A DNA stretch of 21,300 nt from a virus, in the IMG/VR virus record IMGVR_UViG_3300046001_001079, positions 1 through 21,300 of that record, one strand, 5' to 3'. Both the position numbers and the translations under genes were made by a program. How positions within the stretch are numbered: position 1 is the stretch's first letter; each line of letters begins with the position of its first letter. Below the pieces are notes generated by a model that saw nothing but the letters and a program-made list of their open reading frames with translations, made no database searches and was not told the origin of the DNA. Shown here in pieces: positions 2,708 to 20,342 of this stretch.

Positions 2708-2890
2708 ATGACTATCAAACAAAAGAAAGATCACAAAAACAAAGGAACAGAAGGAGGTTTTAACTGGAAGACAAAGACCTATAGGGTAAAGCATTCCCTT
2801 AGCTCCGAAGACATAAAGAAGTCTAAAAAATATAAAGACTTTTTACAAAAGGATTGTGTTGATGATGATGACCAAGACGATAGACGGTAG
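2708..2890 (+). CDS. Small charged hypothetical protein, 60 aa
   Basis: The product is strongly basic for its first 45 residues (MTIKQKKDHKNKG, then many Lys) and ends in an acidic DDDDQDD run. The ATG follows the preceding stop by eight bases, with no clear ribosome binding site. The 3' end overlaps the reductase gene by about 29 bases, and the acidic tail is the alternative frame of that gene's repeated ATG codons. It is plausible as a small nucleic-acid-associated protein, but the call rests mainly on position and open frame. Confidence 0.45.
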   Translation: MTIKQKKDHKNKGTEGGFNWKTKTYRVKHSLSSEDIKKSKKYKDFLQKDCVDDDDQDDRR

Positions 2891-4520
2891 CTTTAAGACT
2901 AGCTTTGCAGCTAACATTTTTAGATTTAAGTACGCACAAAACCCTAGTGACACCTGGGATCAGCTTGCTGACAGGTTGGTAGAGGATGTTTGTGGTACTC
3001 GTTGGGGTACTAGTAACAAGTTGATGTCAGACAGTGACCGTAAACAACTTGCACAGTACATTAAAGAGATGAAGTTTGTTCCAGGTGGTCGATACCTGTA
3101 CTACGCAGGTAGACCCTTCAAGGCATATAACAATTGTTATCTTCTTCGTGCTGAAGAGGACACTCGGGAAGAGTGGTCTTCAGTAACTTGGCGAGCTATG
3201 TCTTGCCTCATGACTGGTGGAGGTATTGGAATTGATTACTCAAGGCTTAGAGCAGCAGGTAAAACACTTAGCCGAACTGGAGGCACTGCTTCTGGACCTA
3301 TACCACTCATGTATGCGATCAATGAAATCGGGCGTAATGTCATGCAAGGAGGCAGCAGACGCTCGGCAATCTACGCGAGTCTTAATTGGCAACATCCAGA
3401 CGTTAATAAGTTCCTTGTTACTAAGAACTGGACACCAGAAGTAAGAGCTGCTAAAGAGAAAGACTTCAATGCTCATGCTCCTTTGGACATGACTAACATC
3501 AGTGTTAACTACGATGATGCTTCTTTAGATGGTGGACTAGCAGACAACCCTATTTTCCTACAGAATGTTCGTCAAGCAATGGAGACTGGTGAACCAGGGT
3601 TCTCCTTTAACTTCGGAGATAAGCAAAATGAAACGCTTAGAAATGCCTGCACCGAAGTTACGTCTGAAGATGATAGTGACGTATGCAATCTTGGCTCAAT
3701 CAATATGGGCAATATTGAGAGTCTGGAAGAGTTCAAATCGGTGGTTGAACTGGGAAGTAAATTCCTTGTCTGCGGGACACTACGAGCAGATCTCCCTTAC
3801 GAGAAAGTCTATAAGGTTAGAGAGAAGAACCGAAGGCTCGGGTTGGGCCTTATGGGTATACACGAGTGGCTCCTCAAAAGAAAAAGCTCCTACGAAGTAA
3901 CACCAGAACTACACACTTGGTTAAAGGAATACAAAGATGGATCAGAATCAGCAGCCAACAATCACTGTGACCGATTGTTTGTCTCTCGTCCAGCAGCATA
4001 TCGAGCAATTGCACCCACTGGGAGCATTGGAATCCTTGCAGGTACTACAACGGGAATTGAACCACTATTCTCTGTCGCTTATAAAAGGCGTTATCTCACC
4101 GATGGTACAAAGTGGAAATATGAATATGTTGTTGACTCCACCGCAGACCTCCTTATCAAAGAGTATGATCTTGCCCCAGAGTCGATTAATACTGCCTACA
4201 AATTAAGCCATAACTATGAGCAGAGAATTAAGTTCCAAGCAGACGTACAAGATTATGTTGACATGTCAATTTCATCCACAATCAATCTTCCTTCGTGGAA
4301 TGCAAAAGGGAACGAAGAAAGTTCAGTTGGAGTGTTTGCATCAATACTTGCTAAGTATGCTCCGAGGCTTCGCGGATTCACATGCTATCCAGATGGAAGT
4401 CGTGGAGGTCAACCCCTAACCGAAGTCCCTTACGAAGAAGCTATGAAGCACAAAGGTGTCATCTTTGAAGAACATGACATCTGTGACATCAGTGGTAAGG
4501 GTGGAAGTTGTGGTGTGTAA
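2862..4520 (+). CDS. nrdJ: Adenosylcobalamin-dependent (class II) ribonucleotide reductase
   Basis: This enzyme makes deoxyribonucleotides from ribonucleotides with a thiyl radical generated by coenzyme B12. Visible motifs are NNCYLL (one redox Cys) and GGGIGIDYS in the N-terminal half, then NACTE at about residues 261-265 with the Asn-x-Cys-x-Glu catalytic triad. These are followed by DVCNLGSINM (second redox Cys), APTGSIG at about 384-390 (phosphate-binding loop) and STINLPSW. The C-terminus GKGGSCGV, with a Cys 8 residues earlier (ICDIS), fits the mobile redox tail. At 552 aa it is short, without an ATP-cone. ATG 2862 is chosen because AGGA at 2850-2853 lies 8 bases upstream; two more ATGs follow at once and a GTG at 2856 is possible. 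The class II assignment rests on overall sequence style, the single-gene context and lack of a beta subunit gene nearby. It ends the plus-strand unit. Confidence 0.85.
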   Translation: MMMTKTIDGSFKTSFAANIFRFKYAQNPSDTWDQLADRLVEDVCGTRWGTSNKLMSDSDRKQLAQYIKEMKFVPGGRYLYYAGRPFKAYNNCYLLRAEEDTREEWSSVTWRAMSCLMTGGGIGIDYSRLRAAGKTLSRTGGTASGPIPLMYAINEIGRNVMQGGSRRSAIYASLNWQHPDVNKFLVTKNWTPEVRAAKEKDFNAHAPLDMTNISVNYDDASLDGGLADNPIFLQNVRQAMETGEPGFSFNFGDKQNETLRNACTEVTSEDDSDVCNLGSINMGNIESLEEFKSVVELGSKFLVCGTLRADLPYEKVYKVREKNRRLGLGLMGIHEWLLKRKSSYEVTPELHTWLKEYKDGSESAANNHCDRLFVSRPAAYRAIAPTGSIGILAGTTTGIEPLFSVAYKRRYLTDGTKWKYEYVVDSTADLLIKEYDLAPESINTAYKLSHNYEQRIKFQADVQDYVDMSISSTINLPSWNAKGNEESSVGVFASILAKYAPRLRGFTCYPDGSRGGQPLTEVPYEEAMKHKGVIFEEHDICDISGKGGSCGV

Positions 4521-5433: not shown

Positions 5434-6197
5434 AATTGTTGTACAGTAAGAATCATGGATGGTGATTGAGGGTGTATCGGAGCCACTGTAGATGCCGGGT
5501 AGGTCAAGATTTGAGTTGTACCATTGTCGGTAATCCAATACAACTCAAAATAATCGTTGGAAGCGGCTTGAACAATGTAATTCCACCCAATAATTGTATG
5601 CCCATTGATTGCACCATGCTTTGGTGGTGACCCAACAATACCAGCAGAGTTGGATAAATCTACACCATTTTGCCGAAGCCAAATAGTTACATCATCAATT
5701 TGAGAAGAAGGGTTTGATATTTCTGCACTAAACTGGATGTTGTATACACCTGGATTTGTAATAACAATTCTAGATGTAGGAGAACCAATAGCTACACCTA
5801 CAGAAAGATCAGTTGCATTAAATGTGATAGCTTTAATCGTAGTAGCAGTAGAAGACTGGGTGGTAGTGTCATGAAAGGCACCATAGGATTTAATAGTTGT
5901 ACTAGACTGAGAAATAATAATAGTTGATGGTCCAGTAGCTATGGATACACCAGTACCAGCAGTAAGATAAGCAGGAGTAAACTTGTGGTCTGATGTCCTA
6001 CCTATCAGAAGCTGACCATCTTTACCACTAGTAACAGCTAGTGAATCTACCTTGATGCTACCACCAGTAATGGACACATCATTAGAGTTTTGGTCAGCCA
6101 TGTTCCCAAAGACTTTATTGCTAAGCCTTTGAAACCAATCTCTCCAAACAAAAGACTCTTCAATTTTATCTTGAGGGATAGGTGTGTTTAGGTTCAT
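5430..6197 (-). CDS. Virion protein with C1q/TNF-like C-terminal domain
   Basis: The protein has 255 residues. The N-terminal 30 residues (IPQDKIEESFVWRDWFQRL) look like a small attachment segment. A short beta-rich linker follows (GQLLIGRTSDHKF, LTAGTGVSI), and the C-terminal 140 residues form a jelly-roll-like domain: SYGAFHDTTTQSS, ITFNATDLSVGVAIGS, SRIVITNPGVYNIQFSAEI, VTIWLRQNGVDL and NDYFELYWITDN. This pattern is common in phage structural proteins, where C1q-like trimers act as head or tail decorations or receptor-binding tips. AGGTGAGC lies just upstream of the ATG, which overlaps the preceding stop (ATGA). Confidence 0.75.
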   Translation of the reverse strand: MNLNTPIPQDKIEESFVWRDWFQRLSNKVFGNMADQNSNDVSITGGSIKVDSLAVTSGKDGQLLIGRTSDHKFTPAYLTAGTGVSIATGPSTIIISQSSTTIKSYGAFHDTTTQSSTATTIKAITFNATDLSVGVAIGSPTSRIVITNPGVYNIQFSAEISNPSSQIDDVTIWLRQNGVDLSNSAGIVGSPPKHGAINGHTIIGWNYIVQAASNDYFELYWITDNGTTQILTYPASTVAPIHPQSPSMILTVQQL

Positions 6198-9100
6198 TGC
6201 TCACCTTTTTGTTCTTCAAGTTTTTTTCTACTACGTTCCAAAGATCTTTTAATTTGATCATGTTTTGCAGAAGGCTCTTCTCTACCTCTTTTTATTTCTT
6301 TTTCATGGTACTTCCAAGAGTTTTCTTTAAGAATTAGTTCTCGTTCTGCTCTAACTGTTTTCTTTTGTTCTGCTGTAGCACCATAAACAGGTAAGCCCAT
6401 TGTTCCTAGTATCGCTCTCTTAGTACCTTCTCCTGGAGGAGCAGCTATAGCAGCAGAAGCTTGGAAAGGTAAGAACATACTAGCAACAGCTTTAAGTCTA
6501 CCCAAAGCACTAGGATCAACTAGTTTTTGAGCAGAAGAACTAGCATACTCAACACCAGCAATACCAACAACAGTGGCTTTAGGAATAAACCCAAGTTTGT
6601 TAGAGAGTGTTTTAGCTGGGTCCATCATCCAATGATACGGTTCCATAGCGTGCTTCATAGCTTGCATGGATGTACCATCAGGCCACTCTATCCGGGTAGG
6701 ATCTTTGTTCTCCCAAACAGGACGATTGGCAGTCAGCAAGTTAATGGTATTGATCAAAGTAAAGTACGTCAAAGCAGTCTTGAATTGATACAACCTAGCG
6801 TAGTCTGCTTTTGTAGTGGGTGTCATCATACCCTTGATGCCTTCTACCGGTTGCCACTTAGTAGGATTGAGTTGCTTAGGTAGAGCAGCAGTAAAAGCAC
6901 GGACAGTAGATATGGTCCAGTCAGGAGCAAACAAAGCCAACTGAAGACCTCTACGACCAGCAGGACTAAATGCTGCCATAGAAGCTCTAGATTTAATTTC
7001 AGAAACTTTATCTAGTGCTTTGCTTGCTATCCCAGTGCCTCTAGTAGAGTCTGCCATTCTTCTAGCAAACTCTTGTCGAGCACTAGTAGCAGCATCAAAC
7101 CAATTGATACCACCAAAGCTATCGTTAACAAACCTAGCAATCTCTTTACGTTGTTGTGTCTCATCAAATGGTCTGCCTTCTTCAAAAGCTTTCATACGAG
7201 CTTTATCTAGATAAGCATCAGCAACCATAATCTTGCCACCAGTGTGCAAGTAATCCCAAGTGTATTTATCAAACAAACCTAGAGTGTATTTCTCAACAAC
7301 AGACAAAGACTTTTCAAGCACTCTAGTCTTAGGACCGTATTTACCAATCATTGAGTCAGCAAACTTACCGATAGAAGTAATAATTCCTTGTGCAACATCT
7401 TCAGGCATTTCTAGAACAAGACCATCTTGTCTAATCCACCTGTCTACGTTTGTTCCTACACCACCTTTTTTAAATTGTTCAACTGCTTTAGATACAGCAG
7501 ACAGTTGAAGGTTTTTTCCGGTAAAAGCTTTAACACCCTTCTCAACCAAAGGCAATACGAAAGCTTCTTTAAGTGGTGTCCAGATAGGTATCTGAGCACT
7601 ACTCATAACTTCCATCAAAGACTTAGCATGGAAGAAACTGCCAACAACGTTCATACGTTTAGACAGTTGAGAAACAAACCCCAAAGCTTTCATGAGGTCA
7701 CCAGGACCAGCATCAAAAACAAACTTCAAAGCTGGCATCATGTCTGGATGTACAGCATAACCAGAGAATTGAGGGATGTTCATCATCTCCCAACCATAAG
7801 GCATAGGATTGTCTTTGTTGACTTCCTTAATTGTGGATTCACCAGCAACGTTACGCACTTGTTTAAGACTATCTACAAGCTTCTTGTTCTCAATAGCTTT
7901 TTCCATTGACAAGGCATATTCTTTGTAGACTTCTGCAATGTCTTTAGTTTTAAGTTTAAGTCTCCAGGCGGTCTTACCTGAAGCAGCTATGCGTTCGTTA
8001 ACAGTGTCAAGCCAAGCTTCTAGTTGTTCAAAGGTAGGTAGCTTACGTTCTTTAGCAAATTTACTAGTAACATCCATACCCCTCATAGAAGGATCACTAG
8101 CACCTTTACCAAAGATCTCGTTTATAAACTGTTCACGAGCACCCTTGGGAGCACCAACCCAATCAAGAATGTGTGATACGTAGTTGTCCAAAAGACCTTT
8201 AACTACGCCTTCTTTAACAGCACGATCACCAATGTCTTTAACGAGATCTTGGTATTTATTAGCAATAGCTATTTCTTCTTTGCTAAGACCAGACAAGTCA
8301 CCCTTGTCAATAGCTTCAGCAACAGCTACACGACGATTAGCATCAGGGATGCCTTTAAGTATTTCTTCTTTTTCGTTGTGAATGATCCGTTCATTGGCTT
8401 GTTTATTTCTTATGTTGATGCCAACATACTTTTCAGTTTCACTGATGGGTTCTAACCAAGTCTTTTTGTACTCTTGGTAACCCTCAAAGAACTTAATAGC
8501 TTCTACTTCACCATGCTTCTCAAAGATCTCTTGTGAGATTTCAAAGAATTCTTGTGCATCCTTAACGTCACGAGGATTAGTTGTAGTGCGATCTACTTCT
8601 GGTGTAGGTTCAACTAAAACTTCTTTAGAATCTTTAGCTTTACCCCATTCAACAGCAGGTTCTTTATAAAGACCTGTAGCTCGTAGCTCTACAATTTCTT
8701 TTAATCTAGTTTTTTCTTCTGCTTCTTTTTTAGATAGTTCGTAGTGTTTAGCAAGTTTTTCAGGTTGCTCTGACCAAGCAGTCTCTAAATATCCTTCCAT
8801 AAAAACAGGGTTTTCTGCTGGTTCTCCACTAGCATACAACGACTCTTGTTCTAATTCACTATAGTTGTCATCGATATATTCACGTATTGTGTACTCTGGA
8901 TTTTCTCCAAGTTCTTTTCCACTAAGTGGATGTTCAATAATCTCAAACTTACCTTTGGGAATAACTGTAGGTTTGTCAGTGTTGAGTGCCCATTCTTCAC
9001 CACTTTCACGGCTTACACCTTCAGGTAGGGCATCAGAATGAATCTTAATAATCTTAGAATTTTTAAATGTAAAACCATCAGGACCACCACCTTTAACACG

Positions 9101-10828
9101 AGTAGCGTAATCAGTTGCTACATCTAGGTTGTGAGTCATTGAAAAGCTAGTTGTCTTACCACCAAAGTTACTAGATGGCATAAGAACAAGATCCCCATTA
9201 GGGGTAATCATTTGTTCTACATCAGCTCTAGTACCATGATAAAGATACCTAGGTGCAGTAGTGTCTCCAAGAGTAACTGGACGCTTACCAGTTAGATTAA
9301 AACGTTCATCACCAGCTTTACGGAGGTCACTACTTTTTAATCCAGACTCTTGTTTAGAAGCACTAGCTTGTAGTTCTTTTAATGTAATAGGTTTGTATTC
9401 TGGATTAACCAAACCATCTGCTCTACCAAGCAAGATAGTTACTGGTTTACCACGAATACCTTCAATGTCAGCTATAGTTTTAACTTGTTGTGCAGTAGGA
9501 GCTTGTCCTTCTGCCATATGTAGACTGACAACATACTCTCCAGTTACAGCATCTATGCTCATACTGGATCGTATTGCTCCAGTTTGATTCATAAAATCAC
9601 TGTAACCATTAGGCAAAGTTTCAATAAGGTTTCCTGCAAATCCTATGTGATCTTGTCCTGTACCTATTATTTTTCCGTCAGCCATAAGCCACGGAGACAT
9701 GATGTCATCACCTTCTTTTGCTACTTGATCAAGAGGCATTTTAAAGCCTCCTGCTTTTTCAACTTCAACATCAGTCAAAGTTCTTTTAGGAACATTTTCT
9801 AGAGTTTGATCTTTAGATATTTGACCACTGCGTTTAGCTTGGTCAACAGCTTCATCACGAGTGTGGAAGTTACCAGCATCATCTACAAAGCCTTGGTCAT
9901 AGGTATCAACAGTCTCAGCTATACGGGCTGGGTCATGCTTTGGACCCATGCGTTCAATCTCACCAGTCTCTTTGTTCCTAATAGCAGTTTCAACAAGAGG
10001 CCTAGTGCTATCCCTTTGAGCTTTAGCTTCTTGTAGGTTCTTAAGGAACTGTGTTTTCTCTTCTGGAGTAGCACCAGCAGGTGGTTGATCCGGTGGTGGT
10101 GGAGGTGGTTGACTAGTACTACTACTACGTGCAGATGTCTTAGGAAGCACAGCTCTAGCAGCACTTTCACCAGCTTCAAAAGCTTTTCTACCAAAAGGAT
10201 TAAACCCTGGCATAGCTGCACCTGCTGCGGCAGAAGCAAGTACTTTAATGGGATCTATTTTTCCTTCAGTAGCATACTCAGCACCAGCTTCAATACTGCC
10301 AGTGAGTCCAGCGGATACACCACGTTGGACTAGAGGCTTGGTAAATACTTTGCCAGCTACTTCAGGGATAGTCTTAGGTGACATCCCAGCAATATTAGTT
10401 AAGGTCTGAGCAGCAAATGTTCCGTAAGGATTAGCAGCTTTCTGAGCTTGACGAGCCTTGTAATCTTCTGGAGCAAATGCTTCGTGCATCAAATCAGTAA
10501 CTTTTTGAGCAGCACCAGAAGCTAAAAAAGCACCACCAAGACCACCACCAAACGTAAGTACACCAGCAGTAACAGGAGCTAGAGGACCAGTAAGAGGAGC
10601 AACTACAGTAGATAATTTAGCACCAGCAACCATACCAGCACCAAAGCCAGCAAGACCAGCAGTAGCAGCAGGCACAGTTTCAACACTAGTACGACCTATG
10701 TTCTTCCAGTCTATATCTGATTGTTTACTTTCTACAGCGTCACTAGGTGGTTTAAACGAAGATGTGCTACTAGTAACATCTTTAGACTCTTGAGTTTCAA
10801 CAGCATCTGATGGTGGAGTAAAAGCCAT
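6194..10828 (-). CDS. Large ejection / internal virion protein with ART-like domain
   Basis: At 1544 residues and in the third position after gp7- and gp20-like genes, this fits the P22 gp16-type ejection protein that enters the cell with the DNA. Residues 3-12 and 25-34 form a short repeat (F-x-PPSDAVE). Residues about 51-110 are Gly/Ala-rich and hydrophobic, suitable for membrane insertion. A Pro run lies near 240-250, and a GFVDDAGNFHTRDEA segment follows at about residue 315. Residues 528-616 hold an ADP-ribosyltransferase-like pattern: YHGT (H531), ATDYA (Y574) and GEEWAL (E611/E612). The C-terminal third is helical with a WENKDPTRIEWPDG / KHAMEPYHWMMDP block seen in large polyvalent phage proteins, and the end is highly charged. 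SD AAAGGTT precedes the ATG. Enzymatic activity is inferred, not shown. Confidence 0.8.
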   Translation of the reverse strand: MAFTPPSDAVETQESKDVTSSTSSFKPPSDAVESKQSDIDWKNIGRTSVETVPAATAGLAGFGAGMVAGAKLSTVVAPLTGPLAPVTAGVLTFGGGLGGAFLASGAAQKVTDLMHEAFAPEDYKARQAQKAANPYGTFAAQTLTNIAGMSPKTIPEVAGKVFTKPLVQRGVSAGLTGSIEAGAEYATEGKIDPIKVLASAAAGAAMPGFNPFGRKAFEAGESAARAVLPKTSARSSSTSQPPPPPPDQPPAGATPEEKTQFLKNLQEAKAQRDSTRPLVETAIRNKETGEIERMGPKHDPARIAETVDTYDQGFVDDAGNFHTRDEAVDQAKRSGQISKDQTLENVPKRTLTDVEVEKAGGFKMPLDQVAKEGDDIMSPWLMADGKIIGTGQDHIGFAGNLIETLPNGYSDFMNQTGAIRSSMSIDAVTGEYVVSLHMAEGQAPTAQQVKTIADIEGIRGKPVTILLGRADGLVNPEYKPITLKELQASASKQESGLKSSDLRKAGDERFNLTGKRPVTLGDTTAPRYLYHGTRADVEQMITPNGDLVLMPSSNFGGKTTSFSMTHNLDVATDYATRVKGGGPDGFTFKNSKIIKIHSDALPEGVSRESGEEWALNTDKPTVIPKGKFEIIEHPLSGKELGENPEYTIREYIDDNYSELEQESLYASGEPAENPVFMEGYLETAWSEQPEKLAKHYELSKKEAEEKTRLKEIVELRATGLYKEPAVEWGKAKDSKEVLVEPTPEVDRTTTNPRDVKDAQEFFEISQEIFEKHGEVEAIKFFEGYQEYKKTWLEPISETEKYVGINIRNKQANERIIHNEKEEILKGIPDANRRVAVAEAIDKGDLSGLSKEEIAIANKYQDLVKDIGDRAVKEGVVKGLLDNYVSHILDWVGAPKGAREQFINEIFGKGASDPSMRGMDVTSKFAKERKLPTFEQLEAWLDTVNERIAASGKTAWRLKLKTKDIAEVYKEYALSMEKAIENKKLVDSLKQVRNVAGESTIKEVNKDNPMPYGWEMMNIPQFSGYAVHPDMMPALKFVFDAGPGDLMKALGFVSQLSKRMNVVGSFFHAKSLMEVMSSAQIPIWTPLKEAFVLPLVEKGVKAFTGKNLQLSAVSKAVEQFKKGGVGTNVDRWIRQDGLVLEMPEDVAQGIITSIGKFADSMIGKYGPKTRVLEKSLSVVEKYTLGLFDKYTWDYLHTGGKIMVADAYLDKARMKAFEEGRPFDETQQRKEIARFVNDSFGGINWFDAATSARQEFARRMADSTRGTGIASKALDKVSEIKSRASMAAFSPAGRRGLQLALFAPDWTISTVRAFTAALPKQLNPTKWQPVEGIKGMMTPTTKADYARLYQFKTALTYFTLINTINLLTANRPVWENKDPTRIEWPDGTSMQAMKHAMEPYHWMMDPAKTLSNKLGFIPKATVVGIAGVEYASSSAQKLVDPSALGRLKAVASMFLPFQASAAIAAPPGEGTKRAILGTMGLPVYGATAEQKKTVRAERELILKENSWKYHEKEIKRGREEPSAKHDQIKRSLERSRKKLEEQKGEQ

Positions 10829-10830
10829 AG

Positions 10831-12222
10831 TTAACCTTTAGTGTAGGTCTTGCCATCAGGTGCGATTAGTTTTTGTCCAGCTTTAAGCTTAGCCCACTTA
10901 GAATCAAAATCAGATTGTGTAGTAGCTTTTTCTAGAGGTGCAGCAGGTTTAATGGGAGGAACATTAAGTGGTGGACCAGCTTTACCAGCACCACTAGATG
11001 CAGCAGCACTAGTAGGCTTAGACCCACTAGGAGTAGTAAAAGCAGCATTTGTTTGATCTAGAGGAAGAGTAGTAGGTTTAACCTTACTAGCTTTTTCATC
11101 ATCTTCTGTTGGTGCGTTCCTACCAGTAGCTTCAAACTCTCTATCATAACCTTCAAGAAGCCTATTCTTTTGTGGTCCTTCGGGCATCATTTCTATAGCA
11201 TCTATTTTCTTTTGAACAGCTTCTCTCTTAAGATCTTGGTATTTATTCCAAGCTTTAGTTGAAGCAAGTTCATTTTTAGCTTCACGAGTTTTAGCACTCT
11301 TTTCATCAGAAGCACCCATTCCCATCCAAGTGCTTGCTCGATCTATAACCGCTGCTTTTTCCCAAGCTGCTTTTGCTAGATCTATTTTGTCTCTGTACTC
11401 ATAGTCAACACGACCAGCAATTCTTAGTGAAGTATTGTGTTGACGATCTGCTCTACGATCTTCAGCATCTGAGCCACTACCTTTAGCTCTTCGTAGTTCA
11501 GCTATTTGAAGTTGAGTAGCGTTATTTCTTTCACGCCATTGATCTGATATTCTTGCTATTTCAAGACGAGTTTCATTTGTAGCAGCATTGTTTTGACCTG
11601 ATGCGTTCAAATGAAGTTGTTCAAGCTGCATTTTCTGAAGCTTCTGATCTGTTTGTTCAAAGAACCTTGGTATTTCTTTTTTAATAAGTTCTTTTGTTTC
11701 TGTAGGAAGATTGTCTATTAAAGATTGAAACGGAGTTGTTTCTTCTCCAGCTTGTGTTCCTGTCCTACTGCTTTCAGTACTAGCATTCTTTACAGTAGCA
11801 TAAGCGTTACCAATAACATTTCGAGTAACTTCTTGTTGTTTGAGATCTTTTAAGACCTCTTTCATTTCTAATTTTCCAACTGCATCTAAAGTGTTGACAC
11901 CATTAGTTATGTCACCAGATTGAAATTGAATAGCAGCAGCTAGCCTAAGCTTACCTTGATCATTAGCAGCTATAAATTCAGGAGAAGCTGTTAGTTGTTG
12001 TAGCTTAGTTTTAGATTGTTCAGCAGCTTTAAAGTTAGTATCAGTAACTAGATTAACAAGCTTAGTCTTCTCAATGTTAGCTTGTTCTTGTTGTAGGTCT
12101 AGTTGTATTTTTTGAGCAGCAGCATCAATGTTCTGTTGGTCGTATTGAGCACCATAAACATTCTGTTGCATCTGTCTAGCAGCAGTGCTACCAGCAGCGA
12201 CATCGGTCATTAGGAATGCCAT
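10831..12222 (-). CDS. Ejection protein, gp20-like position, coiled-coil rich
   Basis: This 463-residue protein is almost entirely helical and rich in Gln, Ala, Glu and Lys. Long stretches at residues about 25-75 (QQNIDAAAQKIQLDLQQEQ) and 170-330 (TELQIAELRR-like heptads) suggest coiled coils. The C-terminal 90 residues are a low-complexity Pro/Ser/Ala linker (PTSAAASSGAGKAGPP) ending in a short FDSKWAKLKAGQKLIAPDGK segment. Position between the 208- and 1544-residue genes matches the second ejection protein of P22-like phages. No catalytic motif is seen. The next gene follows with TAACTATG. Confidence 0.7.
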   Translation of the reverse strand: MAFLMTDVAAGSTAARQMQQNVYGAQYDQQNIDAAAQKIQLDLQQEQANIEKTKLVNLVTDTNFKAAEQSKTKLQQLTASPEFIAANDQGKLRLAAAIQFQSGDITNGVNTLDAVGKLEMKEVLKDLKQQEVTRNVIGNAYATVKNASTESSRTGTQAGEETTPFQSLIDNLPTETKELIKKEIPRFFEQTDQKLQKMQLEQLHLNASGQNNAATNETRLEIARISDQWRERNNATQLQIAELRRAKGSGSDAEDRRADRQHNTSLRIAGRVDYEYRDKIDLAKAAWEKAAVIDRASTWMGMGASDEKSAKTREAKNELASTKAWNKYQDLKREAVQKKIDAIEMMPEGPQKNRLLEGYDREFEATGRNAPTEDDEKASKVKPTTLPLDQTNAAFTTPSGSKPTSAAASSGAGKAGPPLNVPPIKPAAPLEKATTQSDFDSKWAKLKAGQKLIAPDGKTYTKG

Positions 12223-12225
12223 GAT

Positions 12226-12852
12226 TTAACTGTATCCAATTGCATTTTCACCAAAACCACCCATGTTGGTCCCAGCGTTGTTAATCGGAAGACCATCACC
12301 ACCGTAGTTACCACCACCACCAAACATTTTACTAATTCCACCACCTGGACCAAACTGTTGTTGAAGAGCACCAAACCCTTGAGCAACACCTTGTTGGTTA
12401 AGGTTGCCTTGGGCTAGACCCATACCAGCAGCTTGAGCAGGGTTCTGAGCAGCACCACTACCTTGAGCTAGTCGATTTAGATAATCCGTCATAAAGCCGT
12501 AGTAGCCCTGCTGACCTATCTTTTGAAGTGCTTGCTGCTCACCCCCTGAGTACAGTTGTCCAGAGGCAGCAGCAGCCCTTTGAGAGGCTTGCATAGCAGG
12601 TTGCATTACACCAGTGTTGAACTGGCTATATCCAGGCATATCTTGGATATTAGCTTGTGCTCCAGGTTGTAGAGCACCAGAATACATAGCACCTAGTTGA
12701 CTACGATAGTCCATAAAAGGATCAGCCATCCTTTGTGCTTCAGCACCAGAAGGACTGCCACCACCAAAGAGACTTCCACCAGACATGGCATTAACACTAC
12801 CTGCAATGCTCATTACTGAGCCAATAGTACTTAAAGAGATTCCAGCAGACAT
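12226..12852 (-). CDS. Ejection protein, gp7-like position, Gly/Gln/Ala-rich
   Basis: This 208-residue protein is dominated by Gly, Gln, Ala and Met. It starts with a hydrophobic Gly/Ser/Ala stretch (STIGSVMSIAGSVNAMSGG). The middle has DPFMDYRSQLGAMYSG and a YSGGEQQALQKIGQQGYYGF block, and the C-terminus is Gly-rich (FGPGGGISKMFGGGG). Small low-complexity proteins with this pattern occur next to gp20/gp16-type proteins and are taken as pilot or DNA-transfer proteins. GGGGA lies upstream of the ATG, and the start overlaps the end of the cupin-SET gene by 22 bases. Confidence 0.7.
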   Translation of the reverse strand: MSAGISLSTIGSVMSIAGSVNAMSGGSLFGGGSPSGAEAQRMADPFMDYRSQLGAMYSGALQPGAQANIQDMPGYSQFNTGVMQPAMQASQRAAAASGQLYSGGEQQALQKIGQQGYYGFMTDYLNRLAQGSGAAQNPAQAAGMGLAQGNLNQQGVAQGFGALQQQFGPGGGISKMFGGGGNYGGDGLPINNAGTNMGGFGENAIGYS

Positions 12853-13718
12853 TTGTTAGTCCCCTTCCAAAGATTATTTAGCTTCATAACTTGTCGGTAG
12901 TCTAAGGTTATTTCTTCACCTAGGTCACCACCAGCCATGCCATGTATGTCTCTAGTTGCTACTAGGAACATATCTCCAAGATCATTTTTAAAAGCTGCTG
13001 TATTCGGATTCTTTGAATGATTGATCAAGTATCCAGCAGGAGTTCTACAACCACCAAGCCTCATAGGAGCTAACAAACTCCCTTGTTTAATCTCAGCAGT
13101 AGAGAACATTCCCTTACCTTGGATAGGAGAATTTCCAGAACAGATGCTGTAGCTTCCATCAGGGAAAGGAACACAGTCTGTTCTATGCTTAGACACTAAC
13201 TCAATATCTTCAACAGTCCAACCAGACTCTTCAATCATCAGCAAGAAGTCTTGTCTATCTTCTTCATGCTTAGGATACTCTAAAGCTAGCTTTTCTTGTT
13301 GATGCTCTACAAGAATCCCTGGTACTTTAAACAAAGTTGATTCTAGGTATTCTACATCTGTGTTACTAGTAACATAAATGTTTTGCCACACAGTGTCTTC
13401 TAAAGTAAAACCTACCTTGCTACCAGCTTTAGCAACAAACATATGTGGAGCAACAAGAGTCTGTGTAGCACCATCTCCATCTATGACATTGATGCTTCCT
13501 TTAAGAAGCACATTCATGTGTTCAGACACATGCTCTTGTCCAATAATAAACGTACCCTTTGGGTAGTGTGCCTCTCTAATATACAACCCACCACCAAACC
13601 TATGAATGACTGAGTTGAGCACTTGTTCCTTAGTCATAAGTGCTTTAGCCAAAGCTAACTTGTCATTTGTAGTACGAAGGTCATAGCTTACTATAGGAGC
13701 TTCTACAACTTGATTCAA
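12831..13718 (-). CDS. Cupin-like / SET-domain fusion protein in virion operon
   Basis: Residues about 40-130 have a cupin-like beta pattern: GGGLYIREAHYPKG, then EHVSEHMNVLLKGSINV with H63 and H67 before the Gly turn, then PHMFVAKAGSKVGF. Residues about 195-275 carry SET-domain signatures: GKGMFST (201-207), AGYLINHSKNPN (228-239, with the N-H-S core) and GEEITLDYRQ (267-276, with the closing Tyr at 274). SET domains transfer methyl groups from S-adenosylmethionine to protein lysines. A helical linker (about 135-180) joins the two. The start is TTG 13718, supported by AGGGG six bases upstream and the next ATG being 28 codons in. It sits between the gp10-like protein and the first ejection protein, so a virion target or virion incorporation is likely but unproven. 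Confidence 0.75.
   Translation of the reverse strand: MNQVVEAPIVSYDLRTTNDKLALAKALMTKEQVLNSVIHRFGGGLYIREAHYPKGTFIIGQEHVSEHMNVLLKGSINVIDGDGATQTLVAPHMFVAKAGSKVGFTLEDTVWQNIYVTSNTDVEYLESTLFKVPGILVEHQQEKLALEYPKHEEDRQDFLLMIEESGWTVEDIELVSKHRTDCVPFPDGSYSICSGNSPIQGKGMFSTAEIKQGSLLAPMRLGGCRTPAGYLINHSKNPNTAAFKNDLGDMFLVATRDIHGMAGGDLGEEITLDYRQVMKLNNLWKGTNKCLLESL
13362..13373 (+). repeat. 12-bp palindrome GTTACTAGTAAC (copy 1)
   Basis: The perfect palindrome lies inside the cupin part of the cupin-SET gene (encoding VTSN). An identical 12-mer is at 15652-15663. Both contain the dispersed ACTAGTAACA word. Confidence 0.6.
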
Positions 13719-13720
13719 AG

Positions 13721-15634
13721 TTATCCCCTGTACCTACCACCACCAACATTTTGTTCTTGATCCATCTCACCAACCCTGAAATCAATTTCAGCACTATCTA
13801 AACGAAGAGGAACGTTACTAGTACACAAGAACTCCCAAGCTCTACGTCTATCAGCACCACTAAGATAGACCTGAGAACGAGAAACATTAAGATCTACACT
13901 ACGGTAGCTAGACCAATTATTGTAATCATCACCAGTGTGTCTAATCTGCATTAAACCAGCAACTTTATCACCAATGATTTCCAACCTACCATAAAACTTA
14001 CGCTTAGTAGTTCCATTATCAGCAATGTCTGTTACTGTCCTACAGTAGATAGCTTGTCCATCATCTTGGTAAGTGTTTGTATCTAGGTAGTAAAGTTTTG
14101 CAGTATCGTCATCAAGACAAAAAGGAATACCAGTTACTTCAGCATAGAAGCTAGGACGAAAGTAAGACTCTTGGTAAGTACCTGGGTTAGGTTGATCATT
14201 AGAAGCAAGAGCATACTGAGTCCAGGTATACCACATCTTTGCACTAATATCATAAACCAAGGTTTGGTTGGTGTTATGGAGAGTAAGGATGTAGCAAGTA
14301 TGACCATTAAACTTGTAGCAGAAGGCAGTGACTTTACTCATGTCATCAGCTTCTAGATGTTTGTCTACACTGTCCGTAGAAACTTTGACAGGACTAACAC
14401 CATCCATGATGTAGACACTACGTCCATGAGTCTTGGTAACTCCTATCCAAAGAACAGTGTTATCAGTAGACACAATGCTATCTCCGTTAGCACAACCAAC
14501 TTCATTGGTGTAGCTTTGGGACACAGCTAGTGGTGAACCAACAGCATTAGCAGCATCGTAATAGAACTGTGTAGAGTTAGCACCAAAAGCTATAAGATAG
14601 TTTAGGTGTTTAACAATGCCTACCAAAGTATCTGTAGTCTGTTCAAAAGTAATGTAACTAAGAGCATCCCAAGATGTAGGGTCACCTACATTAGAGTTGT
14701 ATATACGGTTACCAGTAATAGGAACACTAGAAGAAATACCTATGTACACATAGTTATTTAAAAATACAACACCAGGGACATAGGGTCCAGTAGGAAAAGC
14801 ATTGAGAGCTGGTGTAAGAATACCATTAGAACCTAGATCACTAAAAGTAATAGTTCCAGACACAGCATCTGTATGTGCTATATCAACAGTGATGGTTGTT
14901 CCATTAACGTTGGTAACTGTAGCATTAGGAGCTACACCAGTACCTGAAGCATTCATGCCTACATAGATACCTGTACCACTAGACACAGTGATGTCAAACA
15001 ACTCTACAGTGCCAGTACCTGTAGGAGTAACAGTAGCAGGTAATACAACAGTACACGTAGGAGCAGTAGCAAGTCCAGTACCAGCATTGGTAATGGTTAC
15101 AGTAGAAATGCTTCCATCAACAACAGTAGCTGTAGCAGTAGGACCAACAGGACTAAAGGTAAGGGTAATCCCTGTACTGTACCTAAGACCTTCATTAGCA
15201 ATACTGATCCTTACTAGCTTGTCATTAGTAATAGCACTGTAAACACCAGCTTTGCTATAGAGGTATGCGTTAATCTTGTTGTGAAAGAACAAGTAAGCAT
15301 CTAAGAAAGTCTTAATGAAGTAGCTTTGACTAGTAGAAGTAGATGTAGTACCTACAGTAGTAGTTGCATAGGGAGAGGTAGGATTAGTACTGTACACCGT
15401 GTTATTAATAACAGATATAACTTTGCTGTTAAAGCTAGCTAGACCTTGACTAGCAAGTACAGCAGGAGGTGTAACAGCTACAATTTGCTTAGCTAATACC
15501 AACCCAGGTCTCTTAACAAACTCACGTTTCTGATCCCTGAATTCAAAGACACAGTTAGAAGAATAAGAGTCTTTAGCAAAAGTCCCATTACGGGACTCTA
15601 TTGGTTGGGTTAGTGCTATACGCTCTGTAGCCAT
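13721..15634 (-). CDS. P22 gp10-like tail accessory / DNA stabilization protein
   Basis: The 637-residue protein starts MATERIALTQPIESRNG, with a KREFVKRPGLVLA segment near 37-49, as in head-closure proteins that follow a gp4-like protein. The remaining body is beta-rich with repeated motifs (NNYVYIGISS, NYLIAFGANSTQFYYD, VLWIGVT), consistent with a propeller-like fold. Residues about 146-267 look like an inserted Thr/Gly-rich beta domain (STVTITNAGTGLATAPT, GMNASGTGVAPNATVT). SD CAGGTAACT overlaps the preceding stop. It would sit below the portal and seal packaged DNA. Confidence 0.75.
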   Translation of the reverse strand: MATERIALTQPIESRNGTFAKDSYSSNCVFEFRDQKREFVKRPGLVLAKQIVAVTPPAVLASQGLASFNSKVISVINNTVYSTNPTSPYATTTVGTTSTSTSQSYFIKTFLDAYLFFHNKINAYLYSKAGVYSAITNDKLVRISIANEGLRYSTGITLTFSPVGPTATATVVDGSISTVTITNAGTGLATAPTCTVVLPATVTPTGTGTVELFDITVSSGTGIYVGMNASGTGVAPNATVTNVNGTTITVDIAHTDAVSGTITFSDLGSNGILTPALNAFPTGPYVPGVVFLNNYVYIGISSSVPITGNRIYNSNVGDPTSWDALSYITFEQTTDTLVGIVKHLNYLIAFGANSTQFYYDAANAVGSPLAVSQSYTNEVGCANGDSIVSTDNTVLWIGVTKTHGRSVYIMDGVSPVKVSTDSVDKHLEADDMSKVTAFCYKFNGHTCYILTLHNTNQTLVYDISAKMWYTWTQYALASNDQPNPGTYQESYFRPSFYAEVTGIPFCLDDDTAKLYYLDTNTYQDDGQAIYCRTVTDIADNGTTKRKFYGRLEIIGDKVAGLMQIRHTGDDYNNWSSYRSVDLNVSRSQVYLSGADRRRAWEFLCTSNVPLRLDSAEIDFRVGEMDQEQNVGGGRYRG

Positions 15635-18680: not shown

Positions 18681-20342
18681 TTAAACTTGCCACCAGTTGC
18701 TATTGGTATCTGATCTACAGAAACGCATTACTTGTCCAGTTGCCATAGTTACGTTAACACCACCTGACAACTTAAATGTATTGCCACCAGATGCAGAATG
18801 GTTAATTGTTAGGTTTCCATTAGTAGCCTCAATCAACAAATCTCCATTACGACCATAGTCAGATACAGTATTTGGGGTAGCATTAAATGTAGCTGTTGTA
18901 AGAGTAGTTCCTGGGGATGCTGTTACGATTACCTTAGTGTAACCAGTAACATCAATAGTTGTACCAGCACCTGATGGTGTTAGTGCTATTGGTGGCTCTG
19001 CATATCGAACCATCTGCACACTAAGACGCCTGGGTGAAATAGCATTAAAGTAGTGAGCATTATCACCATACACATCACCAGCTACCCATTGTCTCAAGAT
19101 TGGATAAACCGTAGAACCTTGCTTGAATGAAGTGATGCCACTAACGTAGAACTGGTCGTTGATGTCAAGGTAGAACGCTTGACCAGACGAATACAAGTTA
19201 GCCAACGATGGTGTGCCACCACCAAGGAACAGCGCTCCTATGCCTAGACGCACAGGCTCGGTACCGCCGTTGGACCCGGTGAAGCAGTTGATGATGGCAG
19301 AGTAATTGGTTGCCAAATCGAACCGGTCAATCTTCCCGCCTATGAACGTGAAGGAGCGGTAGGTGTTGACAACGCGAACTGCCTCGCCGCCGGTGGTCAG
19401 ACTGCCCCAACGCTCAAGGTTGCAATTCAACAGCGTGATGTCAGGGAAATCGTTGTCATCAAAATCGTTTTGGAACCCGTCAAGGTTTGAGGGGTTGCTG
19501 CCAAAGACGCCCCAGAAGTCACCTTCATTTAGGCCATTGCAGGCGTTCATCAGAATGCCGCCACGAAGCCTATAGCCTGCTTTGCCCGGTCCACATTGTA
19601 AGGCGTAGCAACCAATCCAATTTACTCCAGGACCACAAGCAACTCTAAAAGAATGTCCTGATCGACTAAGAGAAGATACATTGATCATAGACATAGAAAA
19701 GAAATGCGGGGCATAAAACCCATCATCTCCTGATTCAATGTATATGTTTTTTAATTCACCTAAATAAACTTGACCATCAAAAACAGGTGGTGACGTTATG
19801 TTTCCAAAATCAATACCTTTTCCTGTACCAGTATTAACAACACCAAAGTTGTTAAATACTGGACGAAGGTAGTTCATCACAGCAGTAGTTAAAGCACTAG
19901 TAGCTAAACCAACAGCATAAATTTGAGATTCCCACGGACCATCTCCATAAATAGTAAGAAACTCTTTACTAATAGTAAGAGATCCAGTTGTTATGTAGCG
20001 ACCACCAGGAATATAAAGGGCTCGACCACCATATTGAACACTAGATTCACAATAGGCTATGGCTGCTTGTATAGCAGCAGTATCATCTGTGTGTCCATCT
20101 CCTTCTGCTCCAAAATCTTTAACACTAACTACATCACGTAGTTTAGCTTGCACAGTTATGGTTGGTGATGGAGGTCCAGAAGCAGGAAGATAACCAACAA
20201 GAGATGAACCTTGTGTGTTACTAGTACCATTAGCTAAGGCATTAGGAAGAGGTGTTCCACTAGGAGTGTATACAACAGCATTGACATCATTAAGCCAGTC
20301 AGATGCTATGGTAGTACCAGATACAAATACAGTTGATGTCAT
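18681..20342 (-). CDS. Tailspike with pectate-lyase-like beta-helix
   Basis: The 553-residue protein has an attachment segment (residues 1-26, with WLNDVN), a linker, then SVKDFGAEGDGHTDDTAAI at about 73-91, the standard entry of pectate-lyase-fold (right-handed beta-helix) phage depolymerases. GGRALYIPGG and TGSLTI turns follow. The centre to about residue 404 is the helix body. The C-terminus (TGYTKVIVTA, LLIEATNGNLTINHS) is the common fibre ending. Such trimers bind or cut surface polysaccharide. Residues about 241-404 are encoded by GC-rich DNA, while both ends are AT-rich. SD GAGGTACA precedes the ATG. Specific substrate and catalytic residues cannot be assigned. Confidence 0.82.
   Translation of the reverse strand: MTSTVFVSGTTIASDWLNDVNAVVYTPSGTPLPNALANGTSNTQGSSLVGYLPASGPPSPTITVQAKLRDVVSVKDFGAEGDGHTDDTAAIQAAIAYCESSVQYGGRALYIPGGRYITTGSLTISKEFLTIYGDGPWESQIYAVGLATSALTTAVMNYLRPVFNNFGVVNTGTGKGIDFGNITSPPVFDGQVYLGELKNIYIESGDDGFYAPHFFSMSMINVSSLSRSGHSFRVACGPGVNWIGCYALQCGPGKAGYRLRGGILMNACNGLNEGDFWGVFGSNPSNLDGFQNDFDDNDFPDITLLNCNLERWGSLTTGGEAVRVVNTYRSFTFIGGKIDRFDLATNYSAIINCFTGSNGGTEPVRLGIGALFLGGGTPSLANLYSSGQAFYLDINDQFYVSGITSFKQGSTVYPILRQWVAGDVYGDNAHYFNAISPRRLSVQMVRYAEPPIALTPSGAGTTIDVTGYTKVIVTASPGTTLTTATFNATPNTVSDYGRNGDLLIEATNGNLTINHSASGGNTFKLSGGVNVTMATGQVMRFCRSDTNSNWWQV
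19140..19620. other. GC-rich island inside the tailspike gene
   Basis: Codons for roughly residues 241-404 are GC-richer (about 60% in the 60 bases from 19201) than both flanks (about 40%). The block covers the likely beta-helix body, so it may be a swapped receptor or substrate segment. Edges are estimated by eye. Confidence 0.65.

Follow-up and report, generated by a model that had tools for sequence, protein, structure and literature searches.

What does a SET domain do inside the structural operon of a bacteriophage? SET lysine methylation of proteins is regarded as mainly eukaryotic and linked to chromatin. We considered this question for a gene in a viral stretch of 21,300 nucleotides (the window; IMG/VR record IMGVR_UViG_3300046001_001079), which encodes a SET-like domain joined to a cupin and lies between a tail gene and genes for presumed ejection proteins.

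Gene position and domain architecture

Genes around the cupin-SET gene, in the direction of transcription, were arranged as follows.

13721 to 15634, minus strand: upstream gene, P22 gp10-like / Hc3 tail protein (phrog_578, E=5.7e-40)
13725 to 13729, minus strand: AGGGG ribosome-binding site, shared with the 3' end of the upstream gene (direct sequence reading)
12831 to 13718, minus strand: cupin-SET fusion protein, 295 aa, TTG start (Pfam, PHROGs, AlphaFold2)
12226 to 12852, minus strand: downstream gene ej1 (208 aa), presumed first ejection protein (role by synteny)
10831 to 12222, minus strand: second presumed ejection protein, 463 aa (gene order)
6194 to 10828, minus strand: third, large presumed ejection protein, 1544 aa (gene order)

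The gene is tightly packed at both ends. Its TTG start codon, replaced by ATG in relatives, follows AGGGG by 6 nt and the stop codon of the upstream gene by 2 nt, and the ATG of ej1 lies inside its 3' end, giving a 22-nt overlap (window 12831-12852). The sequence-only reading had placed the gene between a tail accessory gene and the first ejection gene, and the neighbours agree: the upstream gene matches phrog_578, and the downstream protein is presumed to be an ejection protein from gene order rather than from its sequence. Vibrio phage VPMS1 has a counterpart of this 208-aa protein whose annotation reads "DNA ejection." Many members of the cupin-SET family also share a conserved C-terminal Cys, which we set aside as a functional residue, because by sequence reading its codon holds the ATG with which the following gene starts in another frame.

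Other genes in the window showed features of their own. The 1544-aa presumed ejection protein (6194-10828, minus strand) contains, at residues ~525-640, a stretch (YHGTR...SFSMTHN...ATDYA) that by eye resembles an ADP-ribosyltransferase signature; searches of Pfam and PDB gave no match. A ribonucleotide reductase large-subunit gene is encoded at 2856-4520 on the plus strand (Pfam PF02867, 7e-51); it also matches, weakly, the B12-dependent insertion domain. A pectate-lyase-like protein, possibly a tailspike or depolymerase, is encoded at 18681-20342 on the minus strand (1.3e-15).

Within the cupin-SET protein, we recognized three regions and several conserved SET-domain stretches. Residue conservation was counted in 105 non-redundant cupin-SET fusions, with the sequences aligning at each position as denominators.

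13326 to 13652, minus strand: cupin (jelly-roll) domain, residues ~23-131, metal ligands degenerate (phrog_12032, phrog_24280, Foldseek, residue counts)
13161 to 13325, minus strand: helical linker, residues 132-186, with helices 134-165 and 169-176 (AlphaFold2 model)
12870 to 13160, minus strand: compact SET domain, residues ~187-283 (Pfam SET, model, Foldseek)
13104 to 13118, minus strand: SET motif I, GKGMF (201-205); G201 in 101/103, G203 in 103/103
13041 to 13046, minus strand: R225-T226 within RTPAG, at the place of the SET-I region; R in 100/103, T in 102/103
13002 to 13022, minus strand: SET motif III, NHSKNPN (233-239); N233 and H234 in 103/103, P238 in 95/103, N239 in 101/103
12897 to 12920, minus strand: SET motif IV, GEEITLDY (267-274), with catalytic Tyr274; E269 and Y274 in 101/101

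Profile and structure searches agreed on this architecture. The Pfam SET profile (PF00856) matched the window protein at 26 bits (E=1.3e-5; cut-off 22.4 bits) and five relatives at 27-34 bits. The match to the family phrog_34170 covered the entire protein (E=1e-69), and the N-terminal half matched the cupin-only tail families phrog_12032 (1.5e-23) and phrog_24280 (2e-22). An AlphaFold2 model of the full protein, built with 34 family sequences (pLDDT 89.9, pTM 0.85), contained in order a beta-barrel (34-116), a long helix (134-165), a helix (169-176) and a beta-rich C-terminal domain. Foldseek matched the N-terminal half of this model to cupins (E down to 7e-6) and the C-terminal half to the SET enzymes SETD8 and MLL1. 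The SET half modelled alone, with a 46-sequence alignment, had a pLDDT of 92.9; the 50 PDB matches listed for it by Foldseek were SET enzymes only, with PBCV-1 vSET second among those listed (TM 0.63/0.64). Against PDB sequences, a SET profile matched MLL/KMT2 (~4e-7) and vSET (1e-5). A sequence search of PDB with the cupin domain alone gave no significant match, while the fold search found cupins, and there was no match in PADLOC or NCBIfam.

Together, the predicted fold, motifs and profile score place the C-terminal domain in the SET superfamily, and the N-terminal domain is predicted to have a cupin (RmlC-like) fold. The cupin-SET architecture first proposed from the letters alone has thus held, with a Pfam SET score above the cut-off; it also came through a check of fold topology and profile family, since the predicted fold and the profile search both gave SET. 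The three stretches on which it had been based, GKGMFST (201-207), AGYLINHSKNPN (228-239) and GEEITLDY (267-274), are all present in SET order.

The domain is a compact form of SET. Its GxG and NHS motifs are separated by 30 residues, compared with ~65 in MLL1 (profile alignment), so the SET-I insert, which shapes the substrate groove of eukaryotic SET enzymes, is missing. A CxCx4C post-SET motif was sought in the C-terminus of the window protein and was absent. RTPAG (225-229), just N-terminal of NHS, is an additional signature of this compact subfamily. Catalytic and SAM-site residues were near-invariant among sequences down to ~35% identity.

The metal ligands of the cupin part are degenerate. 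Position 61 is His in 61 of 105 fusions and position 63 in 56 of 105 (Q61 and H63 in the window protein), and the motif-2 His is replaced by Lys101 in 102 of 103 fusions, with cupin motifs placed by eye. The HxH...E and H ligands of metal-dependent cupin enzymes were therefore not found as a set, and this degeneracy suggests that the cupin part is probably not an enzyme. The idea that it is the virion-binding part gained indirect support: cupin-only homologues (phrog_12032 and phrog_24280) occupy the same operon place in related phages, and several carry names such as "short tail fiber" or "tail fiber adhesin" or are annotated as structural, although the tail fiber names are annotation only.

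A widespread fusion with an optional SET domain

The same fusion was found in dozens of distinct contigs in scans of viral contigs, which gave hundreds of SET candidates with 80 per scan retained, and over a hundred distinct phage sequences carry it. Two cultured phages have it, P26218 of Rhodoferax and PH1 of Pseudoalteromonas. Among the collected loci, 212 of 215 SET ORFs of the compact type carry the cupin, a count in which some contigs were entered twice under two locus ids. Two of the three ORFs without a cupin are truncated by contig ends. The third (L147:5860-6417) is a linker-SET without a cupin in a Rhodocyclales genome, within an element that has genes for a primase and an SSB-like protein and lies next to genes resembling rpoD and dnaG. 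One narrow pattern, searched across 84,980 bacterial and archaeal genomes, gave eight loci, of which seven were fusions. Since the same fusion with kept catalytic residues is so widespread, the particles of many uncultured phages probably bear or contain an enzyme that methylates proteins.

Relatives kept the gene order, with the gp10-like gene followed by the cupin or cupin-SET gene and then the ejection genes. A cupin without SET occurs at this same place, after the gp10-like gene and before the ejection genes, in proteins that stop 6-54 residues past the barrel. The cupin alignment was too divergent to serve as a scan query for the whole collection, and single cupin-only proteins were used instead. 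Overlap with the next gene was observed in 66 of 94 cases with SET and 16 of 19 without.

On the cupin tree, presence or absence of SET changed ~10 times, with at least six changes forced by well-supported branches, and there were fewer changes than in any of 500 shuffles; we note that this tree rests on ~107 columns and that its deep branches are weak. Two loci illustrate such a change: L273 and L275 have cupin DNA that is 86.7% identical and diverge at the cupin end, and only one has SET. Two members, at L275:2239-3099 and L290:3974-4846, have partly degraded SET motifs (NHSPGCS; KKG for GxG and NHAFFEN), possibly reflecting module decay. Median dN/dS in 15 pairs was 0.16 for SET, 0.09 for the cupin and 0.17 for the linker. 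The ~10 gains or losses indicate that SET is an optional module, and its dN/dS indicates that it is maintained, so that, as judged from sequence comparison, we regard the domain as an optional module under purifying selection.

This combination bears on whether the protein is an enzyme at all. The sequence-only reading had raised structural reuse of the SET fold, and a non-catalytic binding or structural tail domain, such as a receptor-binding knob, would fit the annotation of cupin-only relatives as short tail fibre or adhesin and the fact that optional domains of tail proteins are often receptor-binding. However, receptor-binding domains usually diversify fast, whereas the SET domain has a dN/dS of 0.16 and catalytic and SAM-site residues that are near-invariant at identities as low as ~35%. 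Because these residues are kept and the domain is optional yet selectively maintained, we find structural reuse improbable and favor an active accessory enzyme.

Gene position also bears on whether such an enzyme belongs to the virion. A late cytoplasmic enzyme that stays outside the virion, in an operon place that is historical, would agree with our literature search, which found no virion proteomics for any family member, and with the fact that the tail fiber names come from annotation. Against this, a cupin-less SET of this type was observed outside a phage structural operon only once (the Rhodocyclales locus), and the cupin gene stays next to the ejection genes whether or not SET is present. 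An enzyme outside the virion appears even more doubtful than structural reuse. That SET is almost always fused to a presumed virion part suggests that the enzyme must be in, or beside, the particle, and we consider it likely that the protein is an active, virion-attached methyltransferase, whatever its target.

Possible delivery into the host or modification of the virion

SAM is cytoplasmic, so the enzyme could work only within a cell, either after delivery or at assembly. Our preferred reading, held tentatively at a probability of roughly 0.45, is that the cupin-SET protein is an active SAM-dependent lysine methyltransferase on a virion part that enters the host with the DNA. The cupin would be a virion part of P22-like podophages, produced beside the ejection proteins, and the fused SET domain would be its optional cargo, an active SAM-dependent protein-lysine methyltransferase. 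The enzyme would enter together with the DNA and the ejection proteins and may then methylate a host protein early in infection, as is thought for PBCV-1 vSET. Virion presence, activity, delivery and a host target are our inferences; the analysis itself shows a predicted SET fold, kept catalytic residues, a near-obligate fusion, a fixed place of the gene, the optional occurrence of SET and purifying selection.

Three points led us to favor delivery. There is coupling between the gene and the ejection module, an enzyme that served only to modify host proteins in the producing cell would need no fusion, and no lysine in the gp10-like protein or ej1 tracks SET. The last comparison had low power: no lysine separated phages with SET from those without in the gp10-like protein (10 versus 20 sequences) or ej1 (7 versus 18), and gp37 and ej2 each gave one weak candidate from few sequences.

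Alternatively, an active SET domain could methylate lysines in tail or ejection proteins of its own phage at assembly, with the cupin positioning it by its substrate. The nearly constant fusion with a presumed virion part, the translational coupling with ej1 and the invariant catalytic residues are consistent with this, SAM is present in the producing cell, and even an external tail location of the protein would be compatible. However, SET is optional, so such modification is not generally needed for assembly, and the lysine comparisons above yielded, at best, a single weak candidate in gp37 and another in ej2. Modification of the virion itself is, in our judgment, rather unlikely but a serious rival, and it gains weight if cupin-only relatives are correctly annotated as "short tail fibre." Delivery, by comparison, fails if the protein remains outside the cell, as the annotation of these relatives as short tail fibres or adhesins could imply. 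As a first guess, we rank host delivery first and virion self-modification second.

In either case, a presumed virion part of phages repeatedly carries the compact SET domain as a cargo maintained by selection. If it is active, these phages form a defined set in which to probe protein modification by the virion, of the host or of the tail, and natural pairs with and without SET provide controls.

Comparison with known systems

The family itself is already known as PHROG 34170, without a function, and a few database records name the SET domain. Members such as PH1 ANY29560.1 and Rhodoferax phage P26218_30 share the full-length cupin-linker-SET architecture and gene place of the window protein. 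The family is listed with unknown function and its cultured members are annotated "hypothetical protein," while one metagenome record is named "pbcV-1 histone H3-lys 27 methyltransferase structure." No paper on the cupin-SET family emerged from our literature search, which covered SET proteins of phages and cupin-tail proteins; a "SET domain protein" is listed among the unknown genes of Stenotrophomonas phage Ps15 (PMC9025141).

Two phage groups each resemble one half of the fusion. PHROG 12032 / 24280 (Shewanella phage X14 gp38, VPMS1 MS_018) has a homologous cupin at the same operon place but no SET domain. PHROG 28741, the stand-alone SET of cyanophages (P-SSM7 PSSM7_204, P-RSM6 CPXG_00131), has the same compact SET with RTP(A/L)G and NHSxxPN and cross-matches PHROG 34170, but it lacks the cupin, is ~99 aa long, occurs in T4-like cyanomyophages and is 26-31% identical to the window SET. 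In cyanophage P-RSM6, this stand-alone gene (L354:2968-3267) lies directly before gp25-like baseplate wedge genes.

Eukaryotic enzymes such as MLL1/KMT2A and SETD8 share the GxG, NHxxPN and GEExxxDY motifs with the phage SET domain and were matched by profile and fold. However, the phage domain differs from conventional histone lysine methyltransferases (MLL, SETD8 and EZH2 types) in lacking the SET-I insert and the post-SET cysteines.

A viral precedent is PBCV-1 vSET (A612L), an H3K27 methyltransferase that is, like the window domain, a small viral SET, and that the virus packages in its virion and is thought to use to repress host transcription (PMC7019647). The two also differ: vSET is a stand-alone protein of an algal virus with a histone target, whereas the phage SET is fused to a cupin, carries the RTPAG motif and is found in phages of bacteria, which have no nucleosomes. 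A specific form of our preferred reading, which we hold more tentatively than delivery in general, is that P22-like podophages may inject a virion-cupin lysine methyltransferase that methylates host proteins, for example of the nucleoid or of transcription. Such an enzyme would be the bacterial counterpart of packaged vSET, built on a compact SET domain without the usual substrate-binding insert.
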